This document shows, piece by piece, positions 2,560-37,256 of a DNA stretch of 64,000 nt (the first letter of the stretch is position 1; each line of letters starts with the position of its first letter). The notes below the pieces were generated by a model, which worked only from the letters and a program-made list of their open reading frames with translations, was not told the origin of the DNA and did not search any database. The DNA is from Anaerolineales bacterium (GTDB taxonomy: Bacteria; Chloroflexota; Anaerolineae; Anaerolineales; Villigracilaceae), in contig JACZJB010000136.1 in the NCBI GenBank assembly GCA_014860805.1, positions 36,948-100,947 of the forward strand, read 5' to 3'. A program made the translations under genes and the position numbers.

Positions 2560-2561
2560 AA

Positions 2562-11778: not shown

Positions 11779-11843
11779 AAAAAAACCTCATTCAAGGAAA
11801 GTAGTGAGTGAACTTTTTCCACTTCCTACTTTCTACTCGCTAT

Positions 11844-12926: not shown

Positions 12927-13180
12927 TAGGTTAGCTCGGGTCCCAACTCTTCTTCAATCGCCCCGATCTGCCGCAGCAGTTCAAGAGTTTCCAATGCTTC
13001 CGATTCGCTCAACAGGCTGATCGCAAACCCTACATGGATGATGCAATACTCGCCAACTTTTGCTTCGGGCACATAGTCCAAACAGGCTTCACGGAAGATC
13101 CCGCCGAAATCCACTTTCGCCATATGCAGTCCGTCTTTTTTGTACGTCTCAACAATTTTTCCAGGCACGCCTAAACACAT
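12926..13180 (-). CDS. hypC: Hydrogenase assembly chaperone HypC
   Basis: An 84-residue HypC/HybG/HupF-family chaperone. It starts MCLGVPGKI, which carries the essential Cys2 that binds the Fe(CN)2CO group, and continues with [32 protein letters not shown], the family OB-like core. It shuttles the iron unit from HypD to the hydrogenase large subunit. It sits one base after the hypF stop and overlaps hypD by one base. Confidence 0.96.
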
Positions 13181-13181
13181 T

Positions 13182-15512: not shown

Positions 15513-15529
15513 GTTTCAGGTTCCAAGTT

Positions 15530-16189: not shown

Positions 16190-16212
16190 TTTGATTTCCG
16201 ATTTTTGTTTGA

Positions 16213-16554
16213 TTATTCCACATCGATGGATTCAAGTGCAAATTCCTCACCAGCGATAACCTTTGCCCCTACTCCGCCGCATTGCGGGCAGACTAATTCT
16301 CTGTCAGTGGGGTGGTATTTGTGGAAACAAGTCATACATTGCAATTCGGCGGGGATGCGGCGGAAGTGGAGCGTGGCTTTTTCTGCGATGGTGTCCTTGG
16401 CGATGATCTCCCAGTAGAACTGGATGGAGTCATCCACCATGCTGGCGAGTTCGCCCATGACGATGTGCAGGTCAGTAATGCGTTTGGCACCTGCTTTTTC
16501 AGCGTGGCCGAGTGCGATTTTTAGGAGGGATTCGGTTATGGGAAGTTCGTGCAT
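16213..16554 (-). CDS. hypA: Hydrogenase maturation nickel metallochaperone HypA
   Basis: A 113-residue nickel chaperone, normal length. The N-terminal MHELPITESLLKIALGHAEKAGA provides the nickel ligand His2. The zinc domain has two CxxC pairs, CMTC and CPQC, at about residues 73-95. It is the first gene of the hyp operon, and the 181-bp gap upstream (16555-16735) should hold the operon promoter. AT-rich sequence is visible there, but no convincing promoter pair could be assigned. Confidence 0.96.
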   Translation of the reverse strand: MHELPITESLLKIALGHAEKAGAKRITDLHIVMGELASMVDDSIQFYWEIIAKDTIAEKATLHFRRIPAELQCMTCFHKYHPTDRELVCPQCGGVGAKVIAGEEFALESIDVE

Positions 16555-19700: not shown

Positions 19701-22700
19701 ACTGGCGTTCCGCTGAGTGTGGCTGTGCCGTTGCCGTTGTCAGTAAAGGTCAACCAGGCGGGGAGAGTCGGCGCGGTGATGGTTAGAACAGCTCCCAGGT
19801 CCGGATCGGAGGCGGTGATGTTATAGATGTAGAGGGCGTCTTCCGCTGCTGTTGTGATCGGGGTGCTGGTAAAGATGGGCGCATCGTTCGTGTTAGTCAC
19901 CGTGATCGTGAATATCTGATCCACATCCGTGACGCCATCATTGACGCGCAAGGTGACATTATGAATGCCGACATGTGCGTTCAATGGTGTGCCGCTGAGG
20001 GAGGCGGTGCCATTGCCGTTATCCACGAGCGATAGCCAGACAGGCAGGGTGGGAGCAGTAATGATGAGCGTATCGCCGTCTGGGTCACTGGTTGTAATGT
20101 TGTATGTGTATGCGCTGTCCTCGGCCGCATTGGTGATCGGCGTGCTTGTGAAGGCTGGCGGGTCGTTGATGGGATTCACCGTGACTGTGAATGTAGTTTC
20201 AACGAACAAGGTGCCGGTATCTGTGGCGCGGATGGTGATTTGCGCTGAGCCGTTTGCATTCGGTGCGTAGTCCAGCACCAAATTCTGGTTGCCAGTGACG
20301 CTCAACGAAGTAAATAGTGCGGCATTCGTATTGCCGGTTATCGAGTACGTGAGCGCGGAGTCTGCATCTTCCACATCTGCAAAAGAGGTCCACAGGTCAA
20401 TTGTGGTGTTCGGCGCATCTTCATCTACAGTGACATTGGCAATGCCAGAGGTGACGGGTGTATCGTTGACAGGATTCACTGTGACTGTGAAAGTCGTTTC
20501 AATGAACAAGCCACTCGCATCCGTGGCGCGGACCGTGAGCTGGGCACTGCCAAATTGATTGGGTGCATAGTCCAGAACAAGGTTCTGCCCGCCTGCAACG
20601 CTGACAGATGTGAACAGTGCGGGATTCGTATTCCCTGTGATGGTGTAGGTCATCTGCGCATCTGTGTTTTCCACATCCGCAAAGGACGGCCACAGGTCTA
20701 TTGTCGTGTCCGCGGCATCTTCGTTAACTGTTACATTCGCTATGCCTGTGGTGGTGGGCGCATCATTGATTTCAGTGATATTGACCGTGAAGACGGTTTC
20801 AATGAACAGGCCGCCTGTGTCGGTAGCCCGAACTGTAATTTGGGCACTGCCGCTGGCGTCTGGCGCAAAATCAAGGACGAGGTTTTGGCCTGCATTTATG
20901 TTGTGCGAGGTGAACAAAGCAGGGTTGGTATTGTTCGCGACGGTGTAGACCAAGGCGCTGTCAGCGTCTTCGATGTCTGCAAAGGAAGGCCATAAGTCAA
21001 TTGTGGTGTTTGCCGCGTCTTCATCCACAGTGACGTTGGAAATGCCAGTTGTGGTAGGCGCATCATTGACCGGATTAACTGTCACAGTGAACGTGGTTTC
21101 AACAAACAGGCCGCCCGAGTCAGTTGCGCGGACGGTAATGTCTGCAGTGCCCGCCTGGTTTTCAGCGTAATCGAGAACCAGGTTTTGATTGGCGAGGATA
21201 TCCACCGACGTGAAGAGCGCCGCGTTGGTGTTGGTTTGGATGGCGTAGGTCAAAGCGCTGTCAGGCTCATCCAAGTCTGAGAAGGAAGTCCACAAGTCAA
21301 GGGTCGAGTTTGAAGCGTCTTCATCCACAGCGACGTTTGCAATACCGCTGGTTGTCGGTGCATGGTTGACGATTTGCAGATAGGTCAATTCCACGCTTTC
21401 GATTGTAGGCGTGATGTTCACATCCGCCGTGCCGAGCGTAACACGGTATTGGGCGTATTGTCCGTTGGGGCTGGCGATCACACCGCTGGTGGCTTGCCAT
21501 GCAGACCAGGTTCCATCAGGCGTGGGAGTGTTGCCTGTGCGTGTTTCAAATGCAGCGTTCGTGCCGGCAGGGATGGAGCTGACCGAGATGAGATCGAGCC
21601 AATCCACAACCGAGCCTGCATCGAAGATGCGCGACTCGAAGGCACAGGGGGTGCCATACGGAGTCAAACGCATCCAGTCGACAATGGCTGCCGTGCCGCC
21701 TGCGTCGTAGTCGCTGATGGCGGGACGCATATCTGCCAGCGCGACGTTGTGCTGGGCGTAGAAAATGCCGTCAATATAAAAGGAAACAGTGGTGCCCGTC
21801 CAATCAATGCGATAACGATGCGGCGTGCCGATCCATGTTCCGGGGATGGGCGTGTTTTGCCCATCGCTGGTCCGTGCATAGAACTGGTTGGTTGTATTAT
21901 TTGTACTAAAGATCGCCCAGCTTCCGCCAAAGTCTGGCGCGCCGATCAATCCCACGTGCTGGAACTGGCTGGCTGTAAATGTGGCTACAAATTCGAAGCT
22001 TCTGCCAGGAGTAAAAGTTGTTGTCGAATAATATGCAGCAGCGCCATCGACCACAACTTGGCCGCCGCCTACAGTGGATGTTCCGCCCGTCCAAGGCGCG
22101 CTTACCCAGCCTGCCGGGAGACTGGCTCCGCTAAACTCCGTGCCAACGGTTGGGTTGAGGATTAACTCTCCGTTGGTCGTTTCTGTGATGTAGCAGGCGT
22201 TCGTACCGGACCCGAAATCTGATCCTGTTGTATCGAGCAATCCATCCGCTTTGGTGATAAAACTCCAATCCGAATCAGCGCCGAGCGGATTGCCAGCCAA
22301 ATCAGCGACTGCACTTTCCACATGGACAGCATATTGCGTCCCCAGCGCAAGGTTGCTGTTCGGGTTGAGCGTGGCAGTTACGCCGGAATAGCTGAGAGTA
22401 AACGGCACTGGAGTATTGGGACCATCCAGGGTTAATGAGAAGTTGGCAGGGATGATGGTGGCCGGATCCATGGGTTCGCTGAATGTAACCGTGATATTGC
22501 CGGTCTCATCCACATCCACTGCGTTCGGCGCAGGGACGCGGCCGATAATGGTTGGCGATGTGACATCCGCACCAATGGAATATGTGATTGAAACGTCTTC
22601 CAAGACCGGCGTGAATGTATTATTCGATGCGGCCAGTACAACCTGATATTGGATGTAGCGTGAATTACCGCTTAATGCCGATCCGGATGTTGGCACTGAC

Positions 22701-25700
22701 TGGAAGGAAGTCCACGTGCCGTCCGGAGTGGGCGTGTTGCCGATGCGGTAAGAGAATGCAAAAGATGTACCTGCGGGTGTTTGACCCGTCCATGCCATGG
22801 TTTCCCAGTTGACAGGCTGGCCTGCGTCAAAGACGCGCGAAGTGAAGGTACAAGGCGAAATATACGGGCTGACGTGCATCCAATCCACCGTGAGGGCGGG
22901 GTTATTGAAGTCGTAGTCACTGGCAGCGGCGCGCATTTGGGTGTTGATGGTCACAGTGCGGCTGAGAACATTCACTCCATCAATATAGAAGTTGACGCTG
23001 TTTGCGTTCCAGTCGATGCGATAGTGATGTGGACTGCCAATGTATTGAGCGCCCAGTGCAATTTTGTCTTCACCGACGTTGAACGGTCCGCCGGCATTCG
23101 CCAGAATACGGGCATAAAGCTGTGAACCGTCATTGCTTGTGGAGAACATGATCCAGGGCGAATTGTTGAAAGTCGGGTCGCCGCCGCCGAAGCCAACATG
23201 CTGGAACGACTGGCCGGTAAATGTCGCTACGAATTCCAATGATGTTCCGGGGTTAAGCAGTGTATCGTTTCTGGCAGAAACACCGTTCAAGGTCAGCAAA
23301 CCTCCGCTGACAGAAGGAGTTCCGCCCGTCCAGGCATTGCTGGACCAACCTGAAGGCAAAACGAAACCGTCAAACTCAGCGGCAATGGTAGGCGGCAAAA
23401 TCAATTCGCCGTTGCCGGTCTGAGTGGGATAGGCACAGCTTAAGTCTCCGCTGCTGAAATCACCGAGGATGGTATCTCCGAGTGTTCCGGACGGTGTGGT
23501 GAAATTCAGAGTCGCTGGCGGGACTGGAGATGTTGACGAGTTTGCGCTCGCATCCGCAGAGGTGACGCGGAAGTAATGCGTGGTGTTCGGGATAAGGCCC
23601 GTCAACGTGATGGAGTGTGTCGTGGTAAGAACTGCATCAGTGGAATTGAGATTCAAAGCAGCAGAATCAGTTCCAAAGTCCACGCGTGAATCGGAGGCTT
23701 CGTCCGTCGTCCAAGTGATGGTGACTGTCCCATCGCCATTGACGGTGGAAACGATATTTGAAATGACGGGCGCAGTTGTATCAAGTGAATAGACAGCCTG
23801 ATAATCCCCACCGGGGGCAAGGAAGTTGGCGTATTCGATCCCTTTGATGGTTTCAGTAGTGTACGTTACCGGGCTACCGTTACGCGTAATGCTTTGAAGG
23901 GGCCCCGCGTTGGATTGCGTGGGCAGCATGGCGTACAGCCCATTTGCTCCGCCGCCAACCGAAACATGGAAGTCAAGAGCGTTTCCATTCCAGGTGATTC
24001 CGCTGAAGGCGGAGAGGTTGCGGCCATCCAGCCAGGTCAATAATTGTTTGGCCGAGATGACAGGCACACTGCGTGCCTGAGCAGATGCGACCATCGCCAG
24101 TGCGGCAGTGTTGGCGCTGGGGCCGCCATCGGTGTGCATATTGGAAGTGAAAGCGCCATAATAACCGGGTGCGCCAATCGCATTGTCGAGGAGTACATCA
24201 ATGTTGTATGGGAATGTCTGTCCTGATTCGTCTGTAAATTGAGTGGTCGCCTGATAGACATCGATCAGCGTGCCATCAAGATCAGCGAATCGCATGGGCA
24301 TGCCCGAGCCAGTGAACAAGCCGGGACGGTCCTGAATCCAACTGGCAGGCCAGTAATAGTAGTTGGTATCTAGGCGCATACCGTTATCCAGTTGGACTTT
24401 CGGTTGAGTAGACCAGTCACTGAAGGCAATGCAATGTGTGCGCTGGGTGGTTTGCGGGTTTATGCTTGGGAACTGTGCAAGCAGTGCAGGGATCTGGGTG
24501 GCGTAATCGTTCGCAAGGGAGGCCGGTGTAAAGTTGGCACAGCCTGTATTGATATGAACCGCGAACTCGTATCCCTGCGCCTGATAGGCTGCCAGTTGTG
24601 CGTTTGTGATGGGCGCATTGGTATACAAATATGTGCTGCTGCGCACACACTCCCAATCGTTTACATTGCAGCCAACCGGGCTGAGGGAATTGTAAGCGTT
24701 GAGACGATTAACAAGGTCGCCACCGCCGTGTTCATCGTGGGTCATAACGAAGACCGCTTTTTCGCCGCGCGGGAAATACCAGAAACGCGGCAGGGGATTA
24801 TTGTCCGCATTCATGGAAAAGATCATGTTGGCAAGCAGGCGTTGCTGTTCATCCGCCTGTGGGATTTGAACTTTATTAAAGTCCACCCAATCTGGATAGA
24901 ACAAGTTATCCGAGCGGATTGGCCCGGCTTGTCCGTCACGGCTCTGACCTGCCCAGGCAGGATTGCCCTGACGGGTATACACAACCGAACGCGCCAGGTC
25001 GTACGTGAAAGCTGCTGCCTGCCCACCGTTTGATCCCACGCTGACAATTGTTACTGCGGGGTTTGTGGTGGCAGTGGTCGCGTTGGAATACAGCGTCGCA
25101 ATGGATGTTGCTCCGCTCAAGGTATAACGATCGGCAGTGCCGTGGAATTGAATGGTCTGATTGACAATGCCTGTTCCCGGCGCAGAAGCTGTGTTGACCA
25201 GTATATATCCTTCGCTTAATGTTGTGCCAGCGGGGGTTATCCCAAGGAGGGAGGCAAGCTGCGGGTCGGGTTTCATCGCGATCAAATTACCGCCGTTATT
25301 GACCCAATTTGTGATCAGGCCAACTTCTGTCGGTGTCAACGTTATTTCGCCAAGAATGACGACCTGATAATTGTTGAGCAACGCGCCGGTGAGGTTGGAA
25401 ATATCCGTGGCTGTGAATTCGTTCAAGCCTTCGGCGCGCAGGATTTCAGCGTAATAGCGGCTGAATGGATTGGCTGCGCTGGACAGAACGAGAATGGGTC
25501 CACCAGGACCTTCGTTGGGCGGGGGACCCTGGGTGGAGAATGTCCATGTGTAATTGGAGGCGAGCGGGTTACCTGCGATATCCGTTACACCGGATGCTCC
25601 GCCGATCACTCGGGCGGTGTATGTTGCTGAAAGGGTCAATGCTGAGGAAGGATTAAGAGTCACTGTCCGCGTGCCGGCGTTATAAGAAACAGTGGCAGGC

Positions 25701-28700
25701 ACCAGGTTGTTGGAAGCGTCGCGCAGTTCAACGGTGGAATTTGTGATGGTGAGCACATCCATGCCCTCGCTGAAAGTGGCAGTTATGCTTGTCCCGGTGC
25801 CGACGTTTGTGACGCCATTCAATGGGGCGACAGTTGTGATCGTTGGCGCGGTATTGTCAATTGGGGTATCGGGCGCGAAAAGTACATCCACCCAATAGTT
25901 GCTCGCCTGAAATGAACTTTGCGGGAAGGCGCTGCTTCCATAGTTATACACACCGTTTGGCCCATCTGGGTCTGCATTTGACAATGCACGCAATGGCGCA
26001 TTGTAAACCTCGGATGTGAAATAATTATTTGCAGCGGCGTAGTTGCCGGATTGAGTGAAATAAGAGCCGATGTAGGTTGTATTTGCATCGATATGGACGG
26101 GCGTGTCAAATAGAATTTCCTGCCAGCCGACATCTGCGGAGTTATTGGTGTAGTTTTTTGCTCCTAATTGTGTTCCGTTCGATGCCCATAGATGCCCAAT
26201 GAATGGACCCGTGTTCGCTGCGCCTTTATAGAATGTGATGCCGATGATCGAACCGGGGACGTCAGACTTAAATTTAAAACCAGCTTCAATGGCTGTCGGG
26301 TCATTTACAGATGCATTGCCTGTAATCGTTCCCTGCTCCCAGACGCTGTAAATTTGCGGCGTAGAGTCGAAGATAACATCCACCCAATAATTGCTGCTTT
26401 GATATGTTTGGGCCGGGAAGGAGCTTGGGCCATAGTTATACACGCCATTTGGGCCATCTTCGCCATTGGCTAAGGCGCGTAATGGCGCGCTGTTGAATCC
26501 GGTGACAAGGTAATTAACATCGGAAGAATATCCACCATTAGCCGAATGATAGGAGGCAACATAGGTTGTGTTTGCAGTGATTTGAACAGGCGTGCTGAAA
26601 TAAACTTCCTGCCAGCCGGATGCGGTTTCACTGGTGAAGACCGCTTCGGCTAATTGCGTTCCATCAGAAGCCCAAAGATGCCCGGTATGCGTGCCAGTGT
26701 TGGCGGTATCTTTGTAGAAGCGCAAGCCGGTGATGTAACCGGCTTCAGAAGATTCGAATTTGACACCTACTTCAATAGGCTGTCCATCATTCTCATATAG
26801 GTTGGCAGGGGTGAATGTATCATTCCAAATCGAGCAGGGACAAACGCGTTCAATTACATTCAAAGTGATGCTTGCGGAAGGTGCGCCAATGTTGCCGCTA
26901 TCGTCAATGGCACGGCTGAGAATTGTGGCAGTTGTGTTGGGTGTGCCGGGAATCCAGTTGTAACTCCACGCTGTGCGCCCTGTTGCCATTTTCCACGTTG
27001 CGCCATTGTCAAGCGAGACCTCAACTGCCGCAACTACACCGCCGGTATCTGAAGCGGTGCCAGATATAGTGAGAGCACTTCCACTAGGCGCATTAGCGCC
27101 GGTGATGGGAGAAACGATGGCTGCTGTTGGGGGGGTAAAATCTGTCGAAGCCGTAGCAGTTGTCAGGTTGTTTTGAAGCGAGCCGGGTTGTACTCCCATG
27201 TCTGCAAAAAGGTTAACTGTCGCTTGTTGCATACTTGGGTCTTCTGTGCTTGTGCCGCGGTCATGGTTGCCGTCAAGCCCCCACACCCATTGAACGGTTC
27301 CAGCTCCCAAGACTAGTGCGCCGCTTGGCGCGCGATACATGGAGAGGTGGTGCGTTTGACCATTGGAGTTGGTGGTCGAAAGCCAGAAACGCCCATCCGG
27401 ATAATTATCTTCGTATAGTGGTTGTTCATGGTCCCACTCGTATCCAAGCGTGTTGCTTTCGAGGTTGGCAATTGTCGCCGGGGAAAGAGATGCGATTGGC
27501 GTGTTGCGCCAGAAGCGCAGCGGACCAAAATCATCGGGCACCTGAATTGTTGCTGTGTTCCCCATCCAACTTATCGTACCCATCAGGGAATTTTCAGGAT
27601 TACAACCATCGTGTCCTGCAACACTGCATCCATCGCGCCACAAACCCGTCCATGTATTTGGGTCGGGATCGCAGTTGTTGTTTCCTTGGCAGGAATAATG
27701 TTCACTGCCTGCAAGCGAGCCTTCCTTGTAAGAGACCAATGTGCGGAAAGACGTATTCGTTCCGTCGATGCTGTTTTCCCAGCGTGTCTTCCAGTAGACT
27801 GAGTTTCCACTAAAGAATGCCAGATGCACACCCGCGTCGCGCGCTGCTTCCACTGCTGCACGCTGTTCGGCGGACCAATATTCATCATGCCCAACGGATA
27901 GAAATATGTTGTGCTCTAGAATCTCAGAACTAAAGCGATGTGAATCAACGTCTGTAAAATAACTGACGTCATATCCGTTGCGCTCCAGCCAGCGGATCAT
28001 CGGATACTCGGAGTTGAACCAAAAATCTTCGGTTGAGTTCGAGCGAGTGAGGAAGGGGCGATTGTAGCTGACTTTGTGTGCATGGTTTGGAGCGGCATAT
28101 AAACTATACCCACCGTATCCATTGTATGCCTGCCAGGTGGTATCAGAAGTTTGGAACAACAAATCTGAATTGCCGTCATCATCACGGACGATAAAAGTAA
28201 TATGGCTTGCGCCCGGTGTTGCATCGTCACGAACCAGTTTGGCAATATAAATACCTGAGGTGGCGGTTCCAGGTACCACCCACGAAGCGGATTCCGCCCA
28301 ATTGCCGCAATCTACAAGATTGATATTATCTGTTCCATTGAATAAACAGGCTGGCTGTATTTGCGGCAAAACCGCAGATGGGGCAATTGTAGCGATCTTG
28401 CGCGCGCCATTTCCCGCATAATATCCCATGCGATAAATATCAATGTGATATGCGCTTGCGTTTGTGTCAATCTTAAAGCGCACCGTGGCGCCCTGATTAA
28501 CGCTGATGTCGGTGGCAAAGCCTTGAATGTTCGCGTCGCCTGCGCCGCTTACATCCCACTCACTGGGCGGGTTGCCCGGCAGGCAGTTCTCCGCCACGAT
28601 CTCGTTTGGCGGAGTAACACAATCGGCATCGAGAGCGGGCTGCGGAGGTGCAGATGAGTTCTCAATGCCGATTGAATTGTTTTCTGACGAGCTGATTCGC

Positions 28701-28828
28701 TGGCTCTCCCGGGCGTATGCCACTTGGCCTGGAGAGCCAATTGCCCCGGCAACGACCATAAATAACAAGATTAGTGTAATTAGTTTGTGAAGTACTGATT
28801 GTGTAGTGGAAGCCGATAGATTTTTCAT
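16736..28828 (-). CDS. Giant secreted multidomain protein with C-terminal sortase domain
   Basis: A 4030-residue exported protein with signal peptide at 1-40 (ending GQVAYA). Approximate order: dimethylformamidase-beta-like region (95-560, with SVGHDEYWS), Ig-like domain (570-655), two DUF4082-like domains (661-815, 823-975), Big_5/SbsA-like Ig (991-1095), GATase1/ThuA-like segment (1105-1330), polysaccharide-deacetylase-like region (1346-1605, with VMTHDEHGGGD), FnIII (1678-1765), concanavalin/LamG-like domain (1782-2080), second Big_5 (2086-2190), second LamG-like domain (2195-2485). Then come four cadherin-like repeats of about 100 residues, six He_PIG-like repeats of about 94 residues, two more cadherin-like domains and an Ig-like domain. 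A Gly-rich linker leads to a sortase domain (about 3880-4030) with His3939 in TGHA, Cys4003 in TLVTC and Arg4016/4017. It has its own promoter and terminator. Domain names are from motif memory, so borders are rough. A cell-surface adhesin or polymer-processing role is inference. Confidence 0.85.
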   Translation of the reverse strand: MKNLSASTTQSVLHKLITLILLFMVVAGAIGSPGQVAYARESQRISSSENNSIGIENSSAPPQPALDADCVTPPNEIVAENCLPGNPPSEWDVSGAGDANIQGFATDISVNQGATVRFKIDTNASAYHIDIYRMGYYAGNGARKIATIAPSAVLPQIQPACLFNGTDNINLVDCGNWAESASWVVPGTATSGIYIAKLVRDDATPGASHITFIVRDDDGNSDLLFQTSDTTWQAYNGYGGYSLYAAPNHAHKVSYNRPFLTRSNSTEDFWFNSEYPMIRWLERNGYDVSYFTDVDSHRFSSEILEHNIFLSVGHDEYWSAEQRAAVEAARDAGVHLAFFSGNSVYWKTRWENSIDGTNTSFRTLVSYKEGSLAGSEHYSCQGNNNCDPDPNTWTGLWRDGCSVAGHDGCNPENSLMGTISWMGNTATIQVPDDFGPLRFWRNTPIASLSPATIANLESNTLGYEWDHEQPLYEDNYPDGRFWLSTTNSNGQTHHLSMYRAPSGALVLGAGTVQWVWGLDGNHDRGTSTEDPSMQQATVNLFADMGVQPGSLQNNLTTATASTDFTPPTAAIVSPITGANAPSGSALTISGTASDTGGVVAAVEVSLDNGATWKMATGRTAWSYNWIPGTPNTTATILSRAIDDSGNIGAPSASITLNVIERVCPCSIWNDTFTPANLYENDGQPIEVGVKFESSEAGYITGLRFYKDTANTGTHTGHLWASDGTQLAEAVFTSETASGWQEVYFSTPVQITANTTYVASYHSANGGYSSDVNYLVTGFNSAPLRALANGEDGPNGVYNYGPSSFPAQTYQSSNYWVDVIFDSTPQIYSVWEQGTITGNASVNDPTAIEAGFKFKSDVPGSIIGITFYKGAANTGPFIGHLWASNGTQLGAKNYTNNSADVGWQEILFDTPVHIDANTTYIGSYFTQSGNYAAANNYFTSEVYNAPLRALSNADPDGPNGVYNYGSSAFPQSSFQASNYWVDVLFAPDTPIDNTAPTITTVAPLNGVTNVGTGTSITATFSEGMDVLTITNSTVELRDASNNLVPATVSYNAGTRTVTLNPSSALTLSATYTARVIGGASGVTDIAGNPLASNYTWTFSTQGPPPNEGPGGPILVLSSAANPFSRYYAEILRAEGLNEFTATDISNLTGALLNNYQVVILGEITLTPTEVGLITNWVNNGGNLIAMKPDPQLASLLGITPAGTTLSEGYILVNTASAPGTGIVNQTIQFHGTADRYTLSGATSIATLYSNATTATTNPAVTIVSVGSNGGQAAAFTYDLARSVVYTRQGNPAWAGQSRDGQAGPIRSDNLFYPDWVDFNKVQIPQADEQQRLLANMIFSMNADNNPLPRFWYFPRGEKAVFVMTHDEHGGGDLVNRLNAYNSLSPVGCNVNDWECVRSSTYLYTNAPITNAQLAAYQAQGYEFAVHINTGCANFTPASLANDYATQIPALLAQFPSINPQTTQRTHCIAFSDWSTQPKVQLDNGMRLDTNYYYWPASWIQDRPGLFTGSGMPMRFADLDGTLIDVYQATTQFTDESGQTFPYNIDVLLDNAIGAPGYYGAFTSNMHTDGGPSANTAALAMVASAQARSVPVISAKQLLTWLDGRNLSAFSGITWNGNALDFHVSVGGGANGLYAMLPTQSNAGPLQSITRNGSPVTYTTETIKGIEYANFLAPGGDYQAVYSLDTTAPVISNIVSTVNGDGTVTITWTTDEASDSRVDFGTDSAALNLNSTDAVLTTTHSITLTGLIPNTTHYFRVTSADASANSSTSPVPPATLNFTTPSGTLGDTILGDFSSGDLSCAYPTQTGNGELILPPTIAAEFDGFVLPSGWSSNAWTGGTPSVSGGLLTLNGVSARNDTLLNPGTSLEFVATFTGQSFQHVGFGGGDPTFNNSPWIMFSTSNDGSQLYARILANAGGPFNVGEDKIALGAQYIGSPHHYRIDWNANSVNFYIDGVNVLSRTVTINTQMRAAASDYDFNNPALTVDWMHVSPYISPCTFTSRVFDAGQPVNWETMAWTGQTPAGTSFAFSYRIGNTPTPDGTWTSFQSVPTSGSALSGNSRYIQYQVVLAASNNTFTPVLEDVSITYSIGADVTSPTIIGRVPAPNAVDVDETGNITVTFSEPMDPATIIPANFSLTLDGPNTPVPFTLSYSGVTATLNPNSNLALGTQYAVHVESAVADLAGNPLGADSDWSFITKADGLLDTTGSDFGSGTNACYITETTNGELILNPTVGTEFSGASLPAGWVSAPWTGGTSTVGGGQVVVDGAAAYYSTTTFTPGRSFEFVATFTASQFQHVGLIGAPDFGGSWAIFSTNNTTNQFYARTSDGQNTPIPGTWIGTPHRYRIDWTGTTVSFYIDGIFYAQHNVALADMRPAISDYDAGGTAAIVDWMRLTPYGTPCAFESRIFDAGSVVDWLDLISVSSIPAGTNAAFETRTGNTPTPDGTWSAWQATSGVIASPNGQYAQYRVTLGTADVNITPTIESVELTYLQIVNHAPTTSGIANVAVDEDASNSTLDLWTSFSDLDEPDSALTYAIQTNTNAALFTSVDILANQNLVLDYAENQAGTADITVRATDSGGLFVETTFTVTVNPVNDAPTTTGISNVTVDEDAANTTIDLWPSFADIEDADSALVYTVANNTNPALFTSHNINAGQNLVLDFAPDASGSAQITVRATDTGGLFIETVFTVNITEINDAPTTTGIANVTVNEDAADTTIDLWPSFADVENTDAQMTYTITGNTNPALFTSVSVAGGQNLVLDYAPNQFGSAQLTVRATDASGLFIETTFTVTVNPVNDTPVTSGIANVTVDEDAPNTTIDLWTSFADVEDADSALTYSITGNTNAALFTSLSVTGNQNLVLDYAPNANGSAQITIRATDTGTLFVETTFTVTVNPINDPPAFTSTPITNAAEDSAYTYNITTSDPDGDTLIITAPTLPVWLSLVDNGNGTASLSGTPLNAHVGIHNVTLRVNDGVTDVDQIFTITVTNTNDAPIFTSTPITTAAEDALYIYNITASDPDLGAVLTITAPTLPAWLTFTDNGNGTATLSGTPVNANVGIHNVTLNVSDGIANVNQVFAIDVGNTNDAPFFTSAGITAATEDLSYIYNITTSDPDLGSVLTITAPTLPAWLSLVDNGDGTATLFGTPSNANVGANNVTLRVSDGILNVDQNFVITVANVNDAPAFTSTAVTAATEDILYTYNIIASDPDLGTVLAITAPTLPSWLSLVDNGNGTATLSGVPLNANAGNNPVVLQVSDGTVSVQQNFTIAVANVNDAPAFTSTAVTSATEAALYTYDITTNDPDVGDSLIITAPTLPAWLSLVDNGNGTATLSGTPTNANVGNHNVTLRVSDGTASADQIFVVTVANVNDAPAFTSTAVTSATEDVLYSYNITASDPDLGDTLTITAPTLPAWLSLVDNGNGTATLSGTPTNAHIGNHNVTLRVTDGTVNVEQPFTIVVANVNDIPTDIALSNSIVNEGLPAGTVVGTLSTTDPDSGDTFTYSFCGGPDDASFQLNGDTLETAAVLDADIQGTLTICIHSEDAGGLFMEEQFIITISNVNDAPVITLQSNSKNVDESSPLFFNTANASRITLSDPDAGTDAVQTTLTVIQGRLTLSTTSGLIFSTGDGTTDNTMTFSGALSDINAALNGMRYDPPAGFNGGDTLQIDVDDLGNNGSGGNLTDSASMDLSILPMPPKVVTNGINTVADTGDGILAEAEVVTASVTQFIVTFDQDLNDPAGNTALDDVTNPANFMLVHDNADDFQTVSCAGGVSSQDIAITINFVTYSNNGGAGPFIATVNVNDGLPLAYGNYRLFICGTTSITDLYGLELAGDGNTAGTDMVRTFTIPNGIGGGGSGGAANTGFELPASGVMIPVTGFAPGEITPLPAQTGNLLYETKENLRLEIPSLSINQPIVGIKYNNGWDVTWLESKIGYLEGSAYPTWAGNTILTGHATDPNGNLTSFAYIKDLKIGDKFRIHANGQIYIYQVQQNRLISPASLSALFKHEEYDWVTLVTCENWNSELRKFTSRRLVRAVLVSVIPEK
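18470..20165 (-). repeat. Six tandem He_PIG/cadherin-like repeats within the giant gene
   Basis: Six units of about 282 bp encode the pattern FTSTxxTxAxED...YNITxSDPDxG...ITAPTLPAWLSLVDNGNGTATLSGTP...VTLRVSDG...NDAP. The units at the C-terminal end (lower coordinates) are the most alike, which suggests recent duplication or homogenisation there. Confidence 0.85.
20165..21368 (-). repeat. Four tandem cadherin-like repeats within the giant gene
   Basis: Four units of about 300 bp encode the pattern NDAPTTxGIANVTVDEDAxNTTIDLWxSFADxEDADSALTY...LVLDYAPN...ITVRATD...FTVTVNP. They are a different repeat family from the six units that follow. The VDEDA and NDAP turns resemble Ca-binding cadherin-like linkers. 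Confidence 0.85.
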
Positions 28829-29159: not shown

Positions 29160-30761
29160 TTATCTTTGCATTTGCAGCCATAGATAGGAATATGGCTGAA
29201 GCGTCAGATTCTCGGCGATGATGTATTTTTGTTGCGCGAACAGGTCCAGATAATTTTGTTGAAATTTCTTTGGAAGCATCATCGATTCGGCAGATCCGCT
29301 CAGGTTGTTGAGGATTAGCATGGTGTCTTCTTCGTGTTGGCGGATATAGGCTGCTACTGCGGGATTGCCTGTTTCGATCCATTCCATCTGACTGCTTCCA
29401 AAGGCGGCGTGTTTTTTGCGGATGGCGATCATTCGCTTTATGGAGTTGAACAATGAATCAGGATCATCGATCTGGCTGGCAACATTGATATTTTGATACC
29501 CCAGTTTTCCTTTGACAAGTTCCGAATATGGCTCGTTGATGGAAAACCCCGCATTTGGAGAGTCGTCCCATTGCATGGGCGTGCGGACGCCGTTGCGATC
29601 GGGTAGATCAAGGTTGTCGCCCATACCGATCTCGTCGCCGTAATAGATGATTGGGGAGCCCGGCAGGGTGAACAGCAGTGAATTGGCAAGTTCAATTTTG
29701 CGACGATCATTATCGAGCAGGGGAGCGAGGCGGCGGCGTATGCCAAGGTTTAGTTTCATGCGCGGTTCGTAGGCGTACTGTTCCCACATCCACTGGCGTT
29801 CTTCGGGTGTGACCATTTCCAGGGTGAGTTCATCATGGTTGCGGAGGAAGGTGCACCATTGGCAGTTCTCAGGGATGGGCGGTGTGCGCCGCATAATTTC
29901 CGCCATATCTTCAAAGCGCCCCTTTTTGAGAGCCATGTAAATGCGCGGCATGATCGGGAAGTGGAATCCCATGTGGAATTCATCGCCGTCTCCGAAGTAT
30001 GGACGAACATCCTCGGGCCATTGATTCGCTTCGCAAAGCAGGATGCGCCCAGGATAGTGCTCATCCATAAATGAACGCAATTTTTTCAGGTAGATATGGG
30101 TTTCTGGCAGGTTTTCACAGTTGGTGCCTTCACGCTCAAACAGGTAGGGAACTGCATCAGCACGGAAGCCATCAATTCCCAGGTCCAGCCAGAAGCGTGC
30201 GACATTGAGCATTTCCTCCTGCACTTTGGGATTATCAAAATTCAAATCAGGCTGGCTGGCATAAAAACGATGCCAGTAGTATTGTCCCGTCTTTTCATCC
30301 CATGTCCAGTTGGATATTTCGGTATCCAAAAAGATGATGCGCGCATCCTTATACTTTTGGTTTGTATCGCTCCAGACATAGTAATCGCGATAGGGTGAAT
30401 TGCGATCGGAGCGGGATGCCTGGAACCAGGGATGGGCATCCGATGTATGATTCAGCACAAGGTCCATGACGATGCGGATGCTTCGCTGATGGGCGGCTTC
30501 GATCAACTCCTTTAGATCATCCAGCGAGCCATAGGTTTTATCCACATTGTAATAATCAGCAATATCGTAGCCGTCATCCTTCAACGGCGAAGGATAGATG
30601 GGCATGATCCAAATGCAATCTACGCCGAGCGTTTGCAGGTATTCCAGCTTTTCAGTAAGCCCGCGCAAATCGCCGCGGCCGTCACCGTTGCTGTCTTTAA
30701 AAGCACGCACAGAAATTTCATAAAATACGGCGTTCTTGTACCAGAGAGTTGTATCCATCAT
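29160..30761 (-). CDS. treS: Trehalose synthase (maltose alpha-D-glucosyltransferase), GH13
   Basis: A 533-residue GH13 enzyme that interconverts maltose and trehalose. It starts with the TreS-type [40 protein letters not shown] segment. The four GH13 regions are visible: [10 protein letters not shown] (about 98-107), [10 protein letters not shown] with the nucleophile Asp near 199, [12 protein letters not shown] with the acid Glu near 244, and [13 protein letters not shown] with the transition-state Asp near 310. A C-terminal beta domain follows. No fused maltokinase is present. It begins six bases after the glycosidase stop. No strong ribosome site is visible, so translation may depend on coupling to the upstream gene. 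Confidence 0.93.
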
Positions 30762-30767: not shown

Positions 30768-32525
30768 TTATTTGACCGAGTTTCCAGTATTTTCCTGAAT
30801 CGCAAGTTCGATGAAGACCGCTGCGCTCCACCCGAAAATTGGTGCGGCGGATTTGGGCGGTTCTCCCGTTTGAGAGTTGTAGTATTCGCGGATGCCCGGC
30901 TGATTTGCGATCAGGTTTAATGTTTTTTCGCGCAGTTCGTTTGCAAGCTGATATTCGCCAATGGTTTGCAACGCTTCGACAAAAAAATAATTGATGTTGG
31001 CCCAGATGGGACCGCGCCACATTTTGTCGGGGCTGTAGGCTGGGTCGTTGTACGCGACAGTAGGGATGCCAAACCTGCCCAGGAATTCAGACGGGTCTTG
31101 CAAGTGGGCGAGCAATTGTTTTGTGATTTCTTTCGGAAGTTGACCGGTCCACAACGGATAGAGGTTGAAAGGCGTTGTGACAGGGATGGGCTTTTCGTTG
31201 TGTAGAGCCTGGAAGATTCCTGCTTCTTCATCCCAAAGATGTTCGATCATGCGCTTTGTAAGTGCCTCAGCTTTTTGTTTCCATTGTCTTGCCTCATCGG
31301 TTTTTCCGATGATTGCGGCGATTTCTGCCAGCGAATTCATTTGAATCACCAGGTAGGTGTTGATGTCCGGCGATTCAACAGGCATGCCATGATCCCAAAG
31401 TGGGCTGTTATCCAATCCCGATGAATAAGGATGCGTGTATTGCACAATTCCATCTTTGTCGTCATCATTATGGTCGAACCACCAGGCATTCCACCGTACG
31501 AGCGGTTCATAGATTTCCTGCAAGAAATCCGCGTTGGGGTCTGATGTATGAATTTTCAAGGCTGCCCATGCCATAATGGGAGGTTTCGTAACGCGTGCGT
31601 GGATTGGATGATTGATTTCTGATACGACGCCTTCATCGAAAATTGCATCGGGAAGCATCCCATCCGTCAGTTGATTTGCAAGCATCACGCGGATTTGATC
31701 GCGCGCAAGCTGCGGATCAATGTGGCGGAAAGCAATAGCATGCAGGGCGCTATCCCATAGCCAGGCGCCAACATAAAACGCCTTGGTCGGCATCATGGCT
31801 TCGTATTTGACATAGCCCGATGGACTGACAAGATTATTTGCCATAACCCACAACGCATACGCGTATTTTTCGCGTCTTGACTCGCTGACAACCGGTGCGC
31901 GCTCGAACCAGTTGTCCCAACGGATTTGAGCAGCCTTGTGCACGCTGGAGAATGGCAGTGATGGGGGAGCACCATCATCACCAATGTGAAGAGTGATCGA
32001 GCTGTCTTCCTCTGCTCGAACGATGAATGTGATCATGTGACCATCTTCATCTACGCGGGTCTGGTGGGTGACCACGGTGCCATTGCTCACGCTGTATGCC
32101 GCTTCACGGACATGCCGCAATTCTCCGCCGGTCTCTGTCTTGAGCCAGTGAATTGGCCGTATTCGAAAACGCATCCCGACAGTTTTATGGTCTGGGAGAC
32201 CAATTGCCAGCGTAGTTTCATCTTGAAAGACCAGGCGGAATTCTCCGGCGCTGGTTTGAAGCGTCAACATTTCAGGTGATGTGGATGTCTTAAATTCGAG
32301 CAGGTTCGCGTGTTCGTCCACAAAAGACAGGTCATCGATGAACGGCGGGCGATGCAGATAACTTTCGATGCCCGGTTCCACTTTGATAAGCCGCTCTGCG
32401 AGTTTTATGTATAAAGTTGATTTATCGCGATGTTGATAAACCAGCAGGCGCGAACCTCGATCACTGAAAGGGACGTTTTTAATGTCGATCTGGTCTTGCA
32501 GGAGTTTTCGTAATGAAATATCCAA
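30768..32525 (-). CDS. Trehalase/GH63-like (alpha/alpha)6 glycosidase
   Basis: A 585-residue cytosolic protein (no signal peptide) with an N-terminal beta-rich domain (about 1-200) and a C-terminal (alpha/alpha)6 barrel of the MGH1/GH63/GH37 type. Barrel landmarks are GAWLWDSALHAIAFRHID, PPIMAWAALKIH, DGIVQYTHPYSSGLDNSPLWD, ESPDINTYLVIQMNSLAEIA and MWRGPIWANINYFFVEALQ. It probably hydrolyses an alpha-glucoside such as trehalose, a maltoside or glucosylglycerate. The operon context (TreS, sugar importer) favours the first two. The start codon is TTG at 32525. The AAAGGA ribosome site lies in the last codons of the permease gene, and the permease stop abuts the start, so coupling is tight. No ATG occurs in the first 80 codons. 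Confidence 0.8.
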   Translation of the reverse strand: MDISLRKLLQDQIDIKNVPFSDRGSRLLVYQHRDKSTLYIKLAERLIKVEPGIESYLHRPPFIDDLSFVDEHANLLEFKTSTSPEMLTLQTSAGEFRLVFQDETTLAIGLPDHKTVGMRFRIRPIHWLKTETGGELRHVREAAYSVSNGTVVTHQTRVDEDGHMITFIVRAEEDSSITLHIGDDGAPPSLPFSSVHKAAQIRWDNWFERAPVVSESRREKYAYALWVMANNLVSPSGYVKYEAMMPTKAFYVGAWLWDSALHAIAFRHIDPQLARDQIRVMLANQLTDGMLPDAIFDEGVVSEINHPIHARVTKPPIMAWAALKIHTSDPNADFLQEIYEPLVRWNAWWFDHNDDDKDGIVQYTHPYSSGLDNSPLWDHGMPVESPDINTYLVIQMNSLAEIAAIIGKTDEARQWKQKAEALTKRMIEHLWDEEAGIFQALHNEKPIPVTTPFNLYPLWTGQLPKEITKQLLAHLQDPSEFLGRFGIPTVAYNDPAYSPDKMWRGPIWANINYFFVEALQTIGEYQLANELREKTLNLIANQPGIREYYNSQTGEPPKSAAPIFGWSAAVFIELAIQENTGNSVK

Positions 32526-33710
32526 TTATCCTTTGACCGCGCCTGCCATCATGCCGCGTACGAAGTAACGCTGGAAGGCGAAGAATACAATCATCGGCAG
32601 CAGCATGGAAAGGAACGCGGAGGCAGTCAGCAAGTGCCAGCCAGCACCGAGGGATGTCACCATGTTGCTAATTTGATAGGTCATAACCGGGGTGGTGCCG
32701 CCCAAAAATACCAGGGCAACCAGCAGGTCATTCCAAACCCATAGGAATTGGAAAATTCCAAGCGAAGCTATGGCTGGCATGGCCAGCGGAATGACCAACT
32801 TCGTAAATGCAGTCCAGTGAGAGGCGCCGTCGAGATACGCAGCTTCAAAAAGATCGCTGGGCAGGGAGCCAAGGAAGTTGCGCATTAAATAAATCGCATA
32901 CGGCATACCAAAACCGGTGTGAAAGAGCCAGACTCCCAGGAATGTGCCGTTCAATCCCATCTGGGCATACAACCGTGAGATTGGAACCAATGTCATCTGG
33001 AGGGGGACAACTTGAAGTCCGACAAGGATGGCAAATAAAATAAAGCGTCCTTTGAAATGCATCCAGGCAAAGGCATACCCGGCGAATGCGGCAAACAGGA
33101 TCGGAAGAATCGTTGCGGGTATCGTGATGAAAAGGCTGTTTAGAAAAGCGCGTCCCATGCCGCGTGGATTTAACAAATCGCTGGCATCGCATTTGAGATC
33201 CAGAGATTGCGCGTTTTCGCTGCAATCCTGCAGATAGCTGTTTCTGCCGCGATAGCCGACCAACGCGTCTACATAGTTGCTGGTTGTAAAGCGAGAAGAG
33301 ACCTCTCCCGAAGAGGCGCCTCGCAGGTAGGATGCAATGTCCGCAGCTTCTTGTGAAGTGGGAAGCGGGATATCGCCCATGTGAGGCTTGCCATCAATGT
33401 CTTTGCGCAGAAGCGCCAGTAATTGCAGTGAACGCGGGTATTTGGCGGTCAACTCCGGGTTGGATAAATCCGCTTGTGGGATGGTTTTTCCATCTGCTCC
33501 ATGGCAGGCGGCACATGATTGAATATAGGGGGCGTTTGCTTCCTGGGAGGAGAATACTGTCCACCATCCCGTTGTGTTTACATCCTGTACCGGGCGAATG
33601 GAGGTGATCAATAGGCCAAATGTTGGAACGACCCAGATGAGGATCGTAAATATGACAATGAAGTGGGTCGGAATTCTGCCCAAGACACGGTTGATCTTGT
33701 CGCGTTTCAT
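32526..33710 (-). CDS. MalG-type sugar ABC permease with an inserted cytochrome c domain
   Basis: A 394-residue permease of a CUT1-type importer. TM1 is at about 16-37, and four or five further segments start at about 190. The EAA loop is ...SDLFEAAYLDGASHWTAFTKLVIPLAMP. Between the usual GWWTVF and the NPRGMGRAFLNSLFITIPAT of TM2 lies an insert of about 130 residues in the same frame. Residues 57-131 read as a class-I (cbb3-type) cytochrome c: CAACH at 66-70 followed by GADGK, a Met at 111 in HMGDIPL, and a C-terminal EAADIASYLRG helix. Two more cysteines (163, 174) follow. The loop should face outside, where heme c is attached. The gene overlaps malF-type gene 33707 by four bases and abuts the glycosidase. 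Transport function is sure; heme binding is inferred. Confidence 0.85.
   Translation of the reverse strand: MKRDKINRVLGRIPTHFIVIFTILIWVVPTFGLLITSIRPVQDVNTTGWWTVFSSQEANAPYIQSCAACHGADGKTIPQADLSNPELTAKYPRSLQLLALLRKDIDGKPHMGDIPLPTSQEAADIASYLRGASSGEVSSRFTTSNYVDALVGYRGRNSYLQDCSENAQSLDLKCDASDLLNPRGMGRAFLNSLFITIPATILPILFAAFAGYAFAWMHFKGRFILFAILVGLQVVPLQMTLVPISRLYAQMGLNGTFLGVWLFHTGFGMPYAIYLMRNFLGSLPSDLFEAAYLDGASHWTAFTKLVIPLAMPAIASLGIFQFLWVWNDLLVALVFLGGTTPVMTYQISNMVTSLGAGWHLLTASAFLSMLLPMIVFFAFQRYFVRGMMAGAVKG
33501..33515 (-). other. Heme c attachment motif CAACH in the permease
   Basis: Codons 66-70 of the permease encode Cys-Ala-Ala-Cys-His. The probable distal ligand Met111 is encoded at 33378-33380. 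The spacing of about 41 residues between His and Met, and the GDIP-type context after Met, fit small class-I cytochromes c. Confidence 0.75.
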
Positions 33711-34669
33711 CGCATCGCCTCCTGTGCCAGAAATCTTTTGATGTTGTAGTAAATAAAGGGAATGATGGCGATCACAAGAATAACCGCCACAGCGGTACCA
33801 CGGCCCATGTTGAAGTTTTTATACATTTCGGTGTACATACGGTTGGCGATCACATTTGTGCCGAAATTACCGCCGGTCATTACATAAACGATATCAAATA
33901 ATTTCAGAACGTTGATGACCATGGTTGTGATCACCACTAAAATTGTCGGCATGATGATCGGGACCATGATTTTCCAGAATGCGGTCCATTCAGTGGCGCC
34001 ATCCACGCGTGCCGCTTCAAGGATTTCGTCGGGCACGGATTTTAATGCGGCGGAAAGGATCGTCATGCAGAACCCGGTCCACATCCAAATACCCACAACG
34101 ATTAACATCAAGGTGTTGACGCCCGGTGTGGACAGCCACGAAACGGGTTTGCCCCCGAGACTGGTAATGATCGAATTCAACAGGCCGATCTGAACTTGCT
34201 GTGTACCGTAGTCGTAGACGAATTTCCAGATGATCCCAGCTCCGACGAACGAAACAGCCATGGGCATGAAAATGATCGCCTTTGCCAGGGCTTCATATTT
34301 CACCCGATCTGCCAGCACCGCGAACGCGAGTCCAATTGATACGGTTCCTGTCGTCATCAGGAATATCCATTTGATATTATTTCCAAAGGATGACTTCCAG
34401 AATGTTTCCCAAAAGGACTTAAATGAGGTGAAGTCGAATTCAGATGTTAACGCGTAACGATAGTTTTCAAAGACGCCCCAACAGGCTTTGCCGGCTGCGC
34501 AGGTTGTCGCCGCAGATGCGGTACCATCCCCGTTCTTAAAGCTGAGAGCGACTGTATTTATCATTGGATAAACAATAAAGAAAGACATGACCAATAGCGC
34601 GGGCAATAAATATAGCCAGGGTGCGATAAGACCCTGCTTCATGATCTTGGGGATGTTTTGGGACGCCAT
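33707..34669 (-). CDS. MalF-type sugar ABC transporter permease
   Basis: A 320-residue membrane subunit with about six transmembrane segments, starting after a short cytosolic tail (MASQNIPKIMKQGLIAPWLYLLPALLVMSFFIVYPM). The EAA loop that contacts the ATPase is DEILEAARVDGATEWTAFWKIMVPIIMP. The first external loop carries a cysteine pair in TTCAAGKACWG, which is unusual and faces the cytochrome-bearing loop of the partner permease. AGGAGG lies just before the ATG, directly after a terminator-like hairpin. No ATP-binding subunit is encoded in this operon, so a shared MsmX/MalK-type ATPase elsewhere must serve it. Confidence 0.92.
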   Translation of the reverse strand: MASQNIPKIMKQGLIAPWLYLLPALLVMSFFIVYPMINTVALSFKNGDGTASAATTCAAGKACWGVFENYRYALTSEFDFTSFKSFWETFWKSSFGNNIKWIFLMTTGTVSIGLAFAVLADRVKYEALAKAIIFMPMAVSFVGAGIIWKFVYDYGTQQVQIGLLNSIITSLGGKPVSWLSTPGVNTLMLIVVGIWMWTGFCMTILSAALKSVPDEILEAARVDGATEWTAFWKIMVPIIMPTILVVITTMVINVLKLFDIVYVMTGGNFGTNVIANRMYTEMYKNFNMGRGTAVAVILVIAIIPFIYYNIKRFLAQEAMR

Positions 34670-34734: not shown

Positions 34735-36027
34735 TTACTTTAATGCTTCAGCTTGCACAGCAGCCGCATCGCTCAATGCTTTATCCAGATCGCCGCCGTT
34801 CAAATACTCTACGATGGCTTTCCATTCGGCGTTTCCGAAGCCGCCGGGAATGGTGTCGCCAATATCGGGAGTGAAGCCTTTTGTTTCGGCGAGAGCCTGC
34901 CCAAGTTTTTGTAATGCAGGATCAACGTAGTTGCCGTTTGCGCCTTTGTTGGGTGATAAACCGAACGTTGCTTTTGCCCAATTGGCTCCTCCCTCTGTTG
35001 AGGAAAGATAAGCCACCAGTGCTTTTACAGCTGGTTTGTCGCTAAAGGCCATCATCCAGTCCGCACCGCCTTGCAAACCTTGAGCTCCAGGGACGATAAA
35101 GAAATCGTAATCAGTACCCTGCTTGAGGTCGGGGAACTGAGCCGCGATATTTCCGCCGGCAAAACCTGACTGCTTGACCATCATGGCTTCTGCTGGATCA
35201 GAGAAGGGCTTGAAGATCGCATCGCCGAAGCTGGTTGAGAGGGTGCCTTCGGCGCCGCCAACAGCATATTTCGGATCTGTTGCCCATTTTCCATAGGTTT
35301 CATAAGCAAGCTTTACGCCCGGATCATTGTAGGGGATGCTGCCATCCAAAATACCCATTACATAGTCTGGGCCCTGTTGCACAAGCAGAATATCCTGAAT
35401 GAAGTCCGATGCGGTCCAACCTGTTGCATCACCTGACTCAATTCCCATACTCCAGGGAACGTTTCCGTCGGCAGCCATCTTTTCCACAAGTGCATCCAAT
35501 TCATCCCATGTTGCAGGGACCGTGTATCCCAAGGCTTCGAAGTTTGCCGGGCTGTACCAGATGATCGTCTTTACATCGGCTTTGATGGGCAAGCCAAGCC
35601 ATTTGCCGTCAATGGTGCCGGGGGTGATGAAAAATTCCGCATAATTAGCGCGGTTTGCGCCCAGATCATCCATGCTAATCAGTTTATCCTGATACTGCAC
35701 CAGTTGAGCCACATTCCAGAATGCAATATCAGGCGGGGTGCCGGCCTGGACGCGGGTATCCAATAACGCCTGATCACGAGTGGATTCTGGCTTCAGTACG
35801 ATGCCGCAGGCATCTACAAATGGTTGCAGCACCTGGTTCAAGTTCGTCTCTTCCACGCCTGACCATTGGTAAAGCATGCTAATTTCATCGCCAGGTTGAG
35901 CCCCCATACACATTTCGGATTGCGCAGCAGGAGCCTCGGTCATGGCGGGGGCCGCACTACCACAGGCAGTTAACAACATGGCGGTTACAACGAACAAGGC
36001 AAAGGTTTGCCAAAAGAACTTTTTCAT
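34735..36027 (-). CDS. Sugar ABC transporter substrate-binding lipoprotein (CUT1 type)
   Basis: A 430-residue extracellular solute-binding protein, family 1 (MalE-like). The signal peptide MKKFFWQTFALFVVTAMLLTACG ends in the lipobox LTAC. The mature protein contains ISMLYQWSGVEETNLNQVLQPF, TRVQAGTPPDIAFWNVAQLVQYQDKLISMDDLG and MMVKQSGFAGGNIAAQFPDLKQGTDYDFFIVPG, which follow the alpha-glucoside-binding pattern. A role in maltose or trehalose uptake is inferred from TreS in the operon. AAGGAGAG precedes the ATG. Expression is expected to be controlled by the operator at 36160-36173. Confidence 0.92.
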   Translation of the reverse strand: MKKFFWQTFALFVVTAMLLTACGSAAPAMTEAPAAQSEMCMGAQPGDEISMLYQWSGVEETNLNQVLQPFVDACGIVLKPESTRDQALLDTRVQAGTPPDIAFWNVAQLVQYQDKLISMDDLGANRANYAEFFITPGTIDGKWLGLPIKADVKTIIWYSPANFEALGYTVPATWDELDALVEKMAADGNVPWSMGIESGDATGWTASDFIQDILLVQQGPDYVMGILDGSIPYNDPGVKLAYETYGKWATDPKYAVGGAEGTLSTSFGDAIFKPFSDPAEAMMVKQSGFAGGNIAAQFPDLKQGTDYDFFIVPGAQGLQGGADWMMAFSDKPAVKALVAYLSSTEGGANWAKATFGLSPNKGANGNYVDPALQKLGQALAETKGFTPDIGDTIPGGFGNAEWKAIVEYLNGGDLDKALSDAAAVQAEALK

Positions 36028-36159
36028 TCTTCTCTCCTTAATATTTCAGTACTTCATTATTATTGGTTGATATGTTGAATGGGGGATGAATCAATGCTGC
36101 CACACACCTCCTTTATACTGAATAATGGACTAGGCGGAACAGAATGAAAGACTTTTTCA

Positions 36160-36208
36160 TGAAAGCACTTTCATGAAGAAAGTATAGCATATCTTTCTTG
36201 AAAGTCAA
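36160..36208 (-). promoter_or_regulatory. Promoter and LacI operator of the second sugar operon
   Basis: On the minus strand, TTGACT (36203-36208) and TATACT (36181-36186) are 16 bp apart, a strong sigma-70-type promoter. TGAAAGCACTTTCA (36160-36173) lies just downstream, where a bound repressor blocks initiation. The same 14-bp operator in the opposite sense occurs at 37260-37273 in front of the regulator gene. Confidence 0.85.
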
Positions 36209-36245: not shown

Positions 36246-37256
36246 TTAAGTGGTCAGACGTTCGATCAACTTTAAAGGAAGGTTGATATGTTGAAGCGGG
36301 CGCTCAGACTCACCGATGCGGGACAGCAGGATCTCGGCAGCCAGCCTTCCCGATTCATCCAAGTGCTGGCGGATGGTTGTTAAATCCACATGTTCTGCCA
36401 CATCAATGTCATCAAAACCGACCAGAGCCAGATCGTCCGGTATTCTTTTACCCATTTCCCTTGCAACTTTCATGACACTCATAGCCTGCATATCTGATGC
36501 TGCAAAAATTGCAGCAGGCGGTTTGGAAAGGCCGATTAATTCACGGGCAGCCTGGCGTGTCTCCATGGCTGTGTAAGGGGCGGAACGGATATAGGTTTTT
36601 GCCAATGAAAAGCCGGCATCCTGTAGCGCCTGCTTGTATCCCGTCAGACGGGATTTAATGGGATGAATTGCAAATCGTTCGGGGGGCTCAATATCCCCTA
36701 GAAATGCAAAACTTCTGTACCCTTTTTTGATGAGATGCTCCGCAACCAGACGTCCGCCGTTCATATCGTCGATCAAGATGCTGTTCAATTGCGGGTGGGA
36801 GTATTCGATCAACACAGTTTCCATGCCGCTTTTGGATAATCGCAGGGCATCCTGGTCTCCCATGGAGAGTGACATGATGATCAACCCATCGATATTCCTC
36901 ATTAGAGGAATGGAGGAGATATATCCCTGAAGATGGTCCATCGAGTCTACAGGGTAGATTACTAATTCATAATTGGCTTTCGATAGTGCAGACGCAACTC
37001 CCCGAAGCCTCTGGACAAATGAAGGAGCGGTAAAGAACGGCGTCAACACACCAATGCGGTCGGTATTCTGCAAGGCGCGGGCGCGGGCGTCTGCACGCGG
37101 AATGAATCCCAATTGGTCAATTGCATCCATCACGCGCTTGTGAGTTTCAGGATTGACCTTGTCCGGATCATTCAGTACGCGTGAAATAGTTGAAATACTT
37201 ACACCGGATTTTTTTGCTACATCGTAGATCGTTGGAGACTTCTTTTGAGCAGTCAT
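36246..37256 (-). CDS. LacI-family regulator of the trehalose/maltose-type operon
   Basis: A 336-residue repressor. The LacI HTH reads TIYDVAKKSGVSISTISRVLNDPDKV (about 9-34), and the hinge follows in LGFIPRADARARAL. The effector domain includes DRIGVLTPFFTAPSFVQRLRG, LVGFDDIDVAEHVDLTTIRQ and the C-terminal LPLKLIERLTT. It lies upstream of the binding-protein gene in the same orientation. Identical operators before this gene and before the transporter genes indicate autoregulation and control of the operon. No good ribosome site is visible because the operator lies just before the ATG. Confidence 0.93.
   Translation of the reverse strand: MTAQKKSPTIYDVAKKSGVSISTISRVLNDPDKVNPETHKRVMDAIDQLGFIPRADARARALQNTDRIGVLTPFFTAPSFVQRLRGVASALSKANYELVIYPVDSMDHLQGYISSIPLMRNIDGLIIMSLSMGDQDALRLSKSGMETVLIEYSHPQLNSILIDDMNGGRLVAEHLIKKGYRSFAFLGDIEPPERFAIHPIKSRLTGYKQALQDAGFSLAKTYIRSAPYTAMETRQAARELIGLSKPPAAIFAASDMQAMSVMKVAREMGKRIPDDLALVGFDDIDVAEHVDLTTIRQHLDESGRLAAEILLSRIGESERPLQHINLPLKLIERLTT

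Follow-up and report, generated by a model that had tools for sequence, protein, structure and literature searches.

ABC importers use ATP as the driving force, and their known points of regulation are the cytoplasmic ATPase and the binding protein. Among the closest described permeases, MalG of E. coli and SugB of the mycobacterial LpqY-SugABC system have neither a cofactor nor a cytochrome domain in the loop between the first and second transmembrane helices (TM1 and TM2). In the topology of MalG, the loop after TM1 lies outside the membrane, where c-type heme gets attached. Another relative is AglG of S. meliloti. It is encoded in the agl operon, in which the genes are arranged in the order of regulator, substrate-binding protein (SBP), AglF, AglG, and glucosidase, and the ATPase gene is next in line. 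In the 64,000-nucleotide stretch of Anaerolineales DNA analyzed here (the window), a permease of the same type, with about 41% identity to S. meliloti AglG over 93-97% of the length, is found in a matching gene order, although the ATPase gene is absent from that position. This permease is almost certainly the AglG-type subunit of an ABC importer, probably one for trehalose or an alpha-glucoside, with a single class I monoheme cytochrome c domain in its TM1-TM2 loop on the outer face (Table 1).

The reading frame of the fusion gene is uninterrupted from the ATG to the stop codon. Both parts are recognized in one protein: PF00528 (BPD_transp_1) scores 57.8 bits against a cut-off of 26.4, and PF00034 (Cytochrom_C) scores 24.1 bits against 21.3 over residues 62-131. 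A second cytochrome profile, PF13442, stays below its cut-off in the whole protein (24.2 against 27 bits), whereas the excised domain clears both (29.2 for PF00034 and 28.3 for PF13442), and PF13442 is matched by all 29 homologous cytochrome domains scanned. The closest solved relatives of the permease part, by sequence and by fold, are SugB (8ja7_B and 7cad_B) and MalG (2r6g_G). An earlier note on this DNA had described a MalG-type permease with an in-frame cytochrome c domain, and most of its description holds. The CAACH motif and the GADGK turn (residues 71-75) were located as claimed, the EAA loop is intact with E289, D294, G295, and P308 invariant in the alignment, and the topology of MalG puts the heme site on the outer side. 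The size of the insert had to be revised from about 130 residues to about 87. In the alignment with domain-less orthologues, the cytochrome domain lies between GWWTVF, following TM1, and FTxxNY, preceding TM2. The stretch from 141 to 183 is not part of the cytochrome, since it is also present in domain-less orthologues and its two cysteines are kept with or without the heme domain: Cys163 and Cys174 occur in 72 of 72 domain-bearing orthologues, and in 16 and 17, respectively, of 17 domain-less ones.

Table 1. Features of the fusion-permease locus (positions are those of the window).
Feature	Position	Strand	Basis
Sugar ABC permease of the AglG/MalG type (394 aa) containing the cytochrome c domain	32526..33710	-	Profiles; closest solved structures
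TM1, residues 15-37	33600..33668	-	Helix H15-37 in predicted model and MalG topology
Cytochrome c domain, residues 54-140	33291..33551	-	PF00034, PF13442, domain model, structural matches
CAACH heme attachment motif, residues 66-70	33501..33515	-	Invariant in all distinct domain-bearing homologues
His110, probable distal heme ligand	33381..33383	-	85/86 homologues
Met111, earlier ligand candidate, not conserved	33378..33380	-	M 42, L 28, V 10, I 4, T 2 of 86
Cys163...Cys174 loop, probable disulfide	33189..33224	-	Conserved with and without heme domain
BPD_transp_1 transmembrane domain, residues 207-387	32550..33092	-	Pfam profile
EAA loop (ATPase docking), residues 289-308	32787..32846	-	Sequence EAAYLDGASHWTAFTKLVIP
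Partner MalF/AglF-type permease	33707..34669	-	Profile; stop overlaps fusion-gene ATG by 4 bases
Cys57...Cys63, partner MalF first external loop; general feature	34481..34501	-	Conservation
Lipoprotein sugar-binding protein	34735..36027	-	Weak NgcE/GlcS/MalE matches; operon position
GH63/MGH1-like glycosidase (glucosylglycerate hydrolase/alpha-glucosidase-like)	30768..32525	-	Profiles
TreS-like GH13 (maltose alpha-D-glucosyltransferase)	29160..30761	-	NCBIfam TIGR02456, 823 bits, cut-off 678
LacI-family regulator	36246..37256	-	Profiles
Promoter-like TTGACT-16-TATACT, 5' of binding-protein gene	36181..36208	-	Consensus match only
Near-perfect LacI-type palindrome TTCATGAAAG-TG-CTTTCATGAA, candidate operator, just 3' of promoter-like site	36156..36177	-	Sequence

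The residues expected to hold a heme are kept far better than the remainder of the domain. CxxCH is present in all 87 distinct fusion proteins, and in the 86 aligned homologues over which conservation was counted (locus L070 was set aside), C66, C69, H70, and G71 are invariant. By contrast, the mean pairwise identity across the domain is only 46%. The distal Met ligand is usual, although not universal, in class I cytochrome c. The earlier note had proposed Met111 for this role and had regarded replacement of Cys, His, or Met in homologues that keep the insert as evidence against a cytochrome. The cysteines and His70 are never replaced, whereas position 111 is Met in fewer than half of the homologues and otherwise Leu, Val, Ile, or Thr, so that the Met assignment is weakened; the residue that is kept is His110. 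In a gap-free alignment with CcoP, the ligand Met of the 'NGQMP' motif lines up with residue 109, immediately before His110. The simplest and more likely reading is that His110 took over as the distal ligand and would form a bis-His heme with His70, since Met111 is not conserved and His110 is nearly always kept. The sole exception, L114 (= L054), reads RGHPDISQNGQMP there, and in this protein a Met may be the heme ligand. Apart from these, the TM1-TM2 loop of L070 (5986-7569, plus strand) holds two cytochrome c domains in tandem, each with its own CxxCH and the conserved His. The ratio dN/dS is about 0.35 in the cytochrome domain versus 0.15 in the transmembrane part; these are rough figures, because they were calculated by the Nei-Gojobori method from pairs with dS < 1.5 and synonymous sites are near saturation. 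By these values, the domain evolves faster than the core yet is under purifying selection.

Predicted structures agree with a cytochrome c fold. When the domain was modeled alone (mean pLDDT 81), helices were placed around CxxCH and, as the earlier note had supposed, at the end of the domain; the model resembles small cytochromes c. A Foldseek search with this model gave weak E-values, 0.1 at best, yet each of the 37 top matches contains a cytochrome c domain. The VIA Z score reached 6.1 with cytochrome c6, and a cbb3 CcoP chain and the cytochrome subunits of fructose dehydrogenase are among the structural matches. A Z score of about 6 is modest by itself, so that the assignment is carried by the sequence evidence. 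The model of the whole protein is mediocre (pLDDT 64).

The surrounding operon, LacI-SBP-MalF-MalG-GH13 and often a GH63-like gene, has a largely similar order with or without the cytochrome domain. Thus, the heme is an add-on that modifies rather than defines the importer. SugB and AglG are the nearest relatives, and the operon contains TreS-like GH13 and GH63-like genes, so that the importer probably takes up trehalose or another small alpha-glucoside. The partner permease has a cysteine pair in its first external loop, which the earlier note had pointed out. The pair is real, but a tie to the heme is rejected, because C57 and C63 are equally conserved in heme-free systems: they are found in 71 of 71 partners of fusion permeases and in 16 of 17 partners of permeases without the domain. 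No gene for a redox partner, dehydrogenase, or cytochrome recurs in the operon or its flanks, where many of the unlabelled clusters resemble shadow frames.

Two other regions of the window deserve mention. The minus strand at 16736-28828 encodes a secreted protein of 4030 residues with DMFA2_C, two DUF4082 domains, many Ig/cadherin-like repeats, and a sortase domain at the C-terminus (PF04203, 67 bits); it is unusual for a giant surface protein to end in a sortase. Genes at 10714-16554 on the same strand resemble, by eye only, the hydrogenase maturation genes hypE, hypD, hypF, hypB, and hypA.

The earlier note had asked whether the fusion recurs in related genomes, and it does so widely. Among 400 genomes sampled from the same order, 84 encode a close orthologue. 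Sixty-eight of these match over the full length and have the domain, and 16 match only from about residue 132 on and are without it. Sampling 396 genomes across the class revealed fusions in yet more families, all with CxxCH, and a phylum-wide sample gave no genome beyond those already found. In total, 87 distinct fusion orthologues are spread over 19 family codes of Anaerolineae (Chloroflexota). A single scan of genome contigs with peptide patterns drawn from this fusion protein, from which a distant parallel fusion could escape, gave 54 related loci and no fusion outside Chloroflexota among them. Other proteins of the same genome or class showed only weak matches to this domain subtype. The fusion is present in independent assemblies, including several single-contig genomes, which rules out an assembly join or a frameshift. 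In one contig (G335:C64), two equal-scoring copies of the fusion gene, 1984-3180 and 144311-145507, are located on opposite strands near both contig ends, perhaps as an assembly duplication.

In a permease tree built without the domain columns, all fusions and 17 domain-less orthologues form one clade on a 99% branch, and a minimum of four state changes is needed. The simplest history would be one ancient gain and about three losses, since the basal rows of the clade carry the domain. The losses fall within one family, which includes fermentative lineages. Within the order sample, every genome without the domain belongs to family code f13, and the records related to them are Anaerolineaceae, Leptolinea, and Brevefilum. 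The cultured genera among these are fermentative anaerobes. A Brevefilum-like orthologue (L145) has a frame of 257 residues without the N-terminal part of the permease, so that this gene is truncated or restarted.

The earlier note had suggested looking for maturation genes. A cytochrome c assembly protein (PF01578) is encoded in all 48 domain-bearing genomes tested, versus 9 of 16 genomes with a domain-less orthologue (Fisher p 2e-5). COX1 oxidase is found in 38 of the 48 (one of them, G137, by a weak match) versus 2 of the 16, and the remaining 10 domain-bearing genomes have no COX1 match. Both associations are phylogenetically confounded, because the genomes are not independent and only two or three losses stand behind them; with so few losses, an independent-pairs test of the domain against maturation or oxidase genes is underpowered and cannot reach significance. 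The pattern fits the view that the domain disappeared from lineages in which c-type heme was no longer available or of use, but it is not proof.

The favored reading, at somewhat less than an even chance, is that the domain regulates the importer from the outer face in response to redox state, because the operon also exists without the domain, no redox enzyme goes with it, and the residues expected to bind heme are by far the best kept. In such a mechanism, the maturation system of the cell would attach heme covalently outside the membrane, and the heme would exchange electrons with external carriers of the respiratory chain. Its redox state might then alter the packing between the domain and either the outer gate or the binding protein, so that import of this sugar would rise or fall with the respiratory state. 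The full statement, in which the permease itself is a c-type cytochrome and the redox state of its outer-face heme sets the rate of sugar import, directly coupling the electron flow of respiration to ATP-driven nutrient uptake in a single polypeptide, is put forward more tentatively still.

Cytochromes of this type, such as cbb3 CcoP and the subunits of sugar dehydrogenases, are mainly electron carriers, and the fructose dehydrogenase subunits among the structural matches point the same way. The domain might therefore be a station for electrons, passed from an extracellular sugar dehydrogenase or another docked donor to the respiratory chain, with transport itself unregulated. This is a serious rival but a less likely one, since a dehydrogenase or cytochrome gene never recurs in the operon or its flanks, and the loss of the Met ligand points to a low potential, which is less usual for such acceptors. 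A structural role is an equally serious rival, with about the same probability: the heme may merely stabilize a compact lid that aids docking of the binding protein. Unrelated inserts at the same loop in AglG of S. meliloti and Ruegeria and in Chloroflexota paralogues agree with this idea, as does retention of the operon by insert-free orthologues. These heme-free inserts also count against the redox-regulatory reading, because they mean that an insert at this loop of AglG-type permeases need not be redox-active. However, a mere lid does not explain why CxxCH and His110 are strictly kept amid drift elsewhere, or why, in the tested genomes, the domain occurs only where maturation genes are present. 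An outer-face heme sensor of NO, CO, or O2 that modulates import is improbable; the sixth ligand is uncertain, since half of the homologues have another residue in place of Met111, but the conserved His110 argues for a six-coordinate heme, a poor binder of gases. A tolerated non-functional insertion or an assembly join is hardly credible, even though some orthologues keep the transporter without the domain, given the independent assemblies and single-contig genomes, the many families, the purifying selection, and the invariant heme motif.

If the domain functions as the redox-regulatory reading proposes, electron transport and carbon uptake would be hard-wired to each other. Because otherwise equal operons encode orthologues that lack the heme domain or contain one or two of them, the question is directly testable. 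Searches of a collection of open-access papers turned up no account of an ABC importer permease that contains a cytochrome c domain, although protein databases may list the architecture uncommented. The parts are known, and their combination and its long conservation appear new.

The fusion permease shares its transmembrane core and EAA loop with MalG and SugB. Its cytochrome domain shares the fold, the CxxCHG.DG start, and the terminal helix with small cytochromes c of the cbb3 CcoP and cytochrome c6 types, but it has the conserved His110 instead of their conserved Met ligand and is embedded in a transporter. Within the order, the orthologues that lack the domain (L055-L066, L068, L069, and L139-L146) share the operon and the Cys163/Cys174 loop, with 70-88% identity in the transmembrane part, and differ in having no cytochrome domain between GWW and FTxxNY. 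The insert of S. meliloti AglG at the TM1-TM2 loop is also domain-sized, but it is without CxxCH or cytochrome c likeness, and that of Ruegeria AglG, likewise alphaproteobacterial, is not a cytochrome c either. Since the Chloroflexota paralogues have yet another insert there, this loop is open to extra domains. Heme-free inserts of about 70-95 residues, unrelated to the cytochrome domain, are seen at this loop in paralogous and AglG permeases (L016-L025, L073-L075, L188:3968-5116, and L189:3923-5065). Among the several inserts seen at this position, the heme domain is the only one of redox type.
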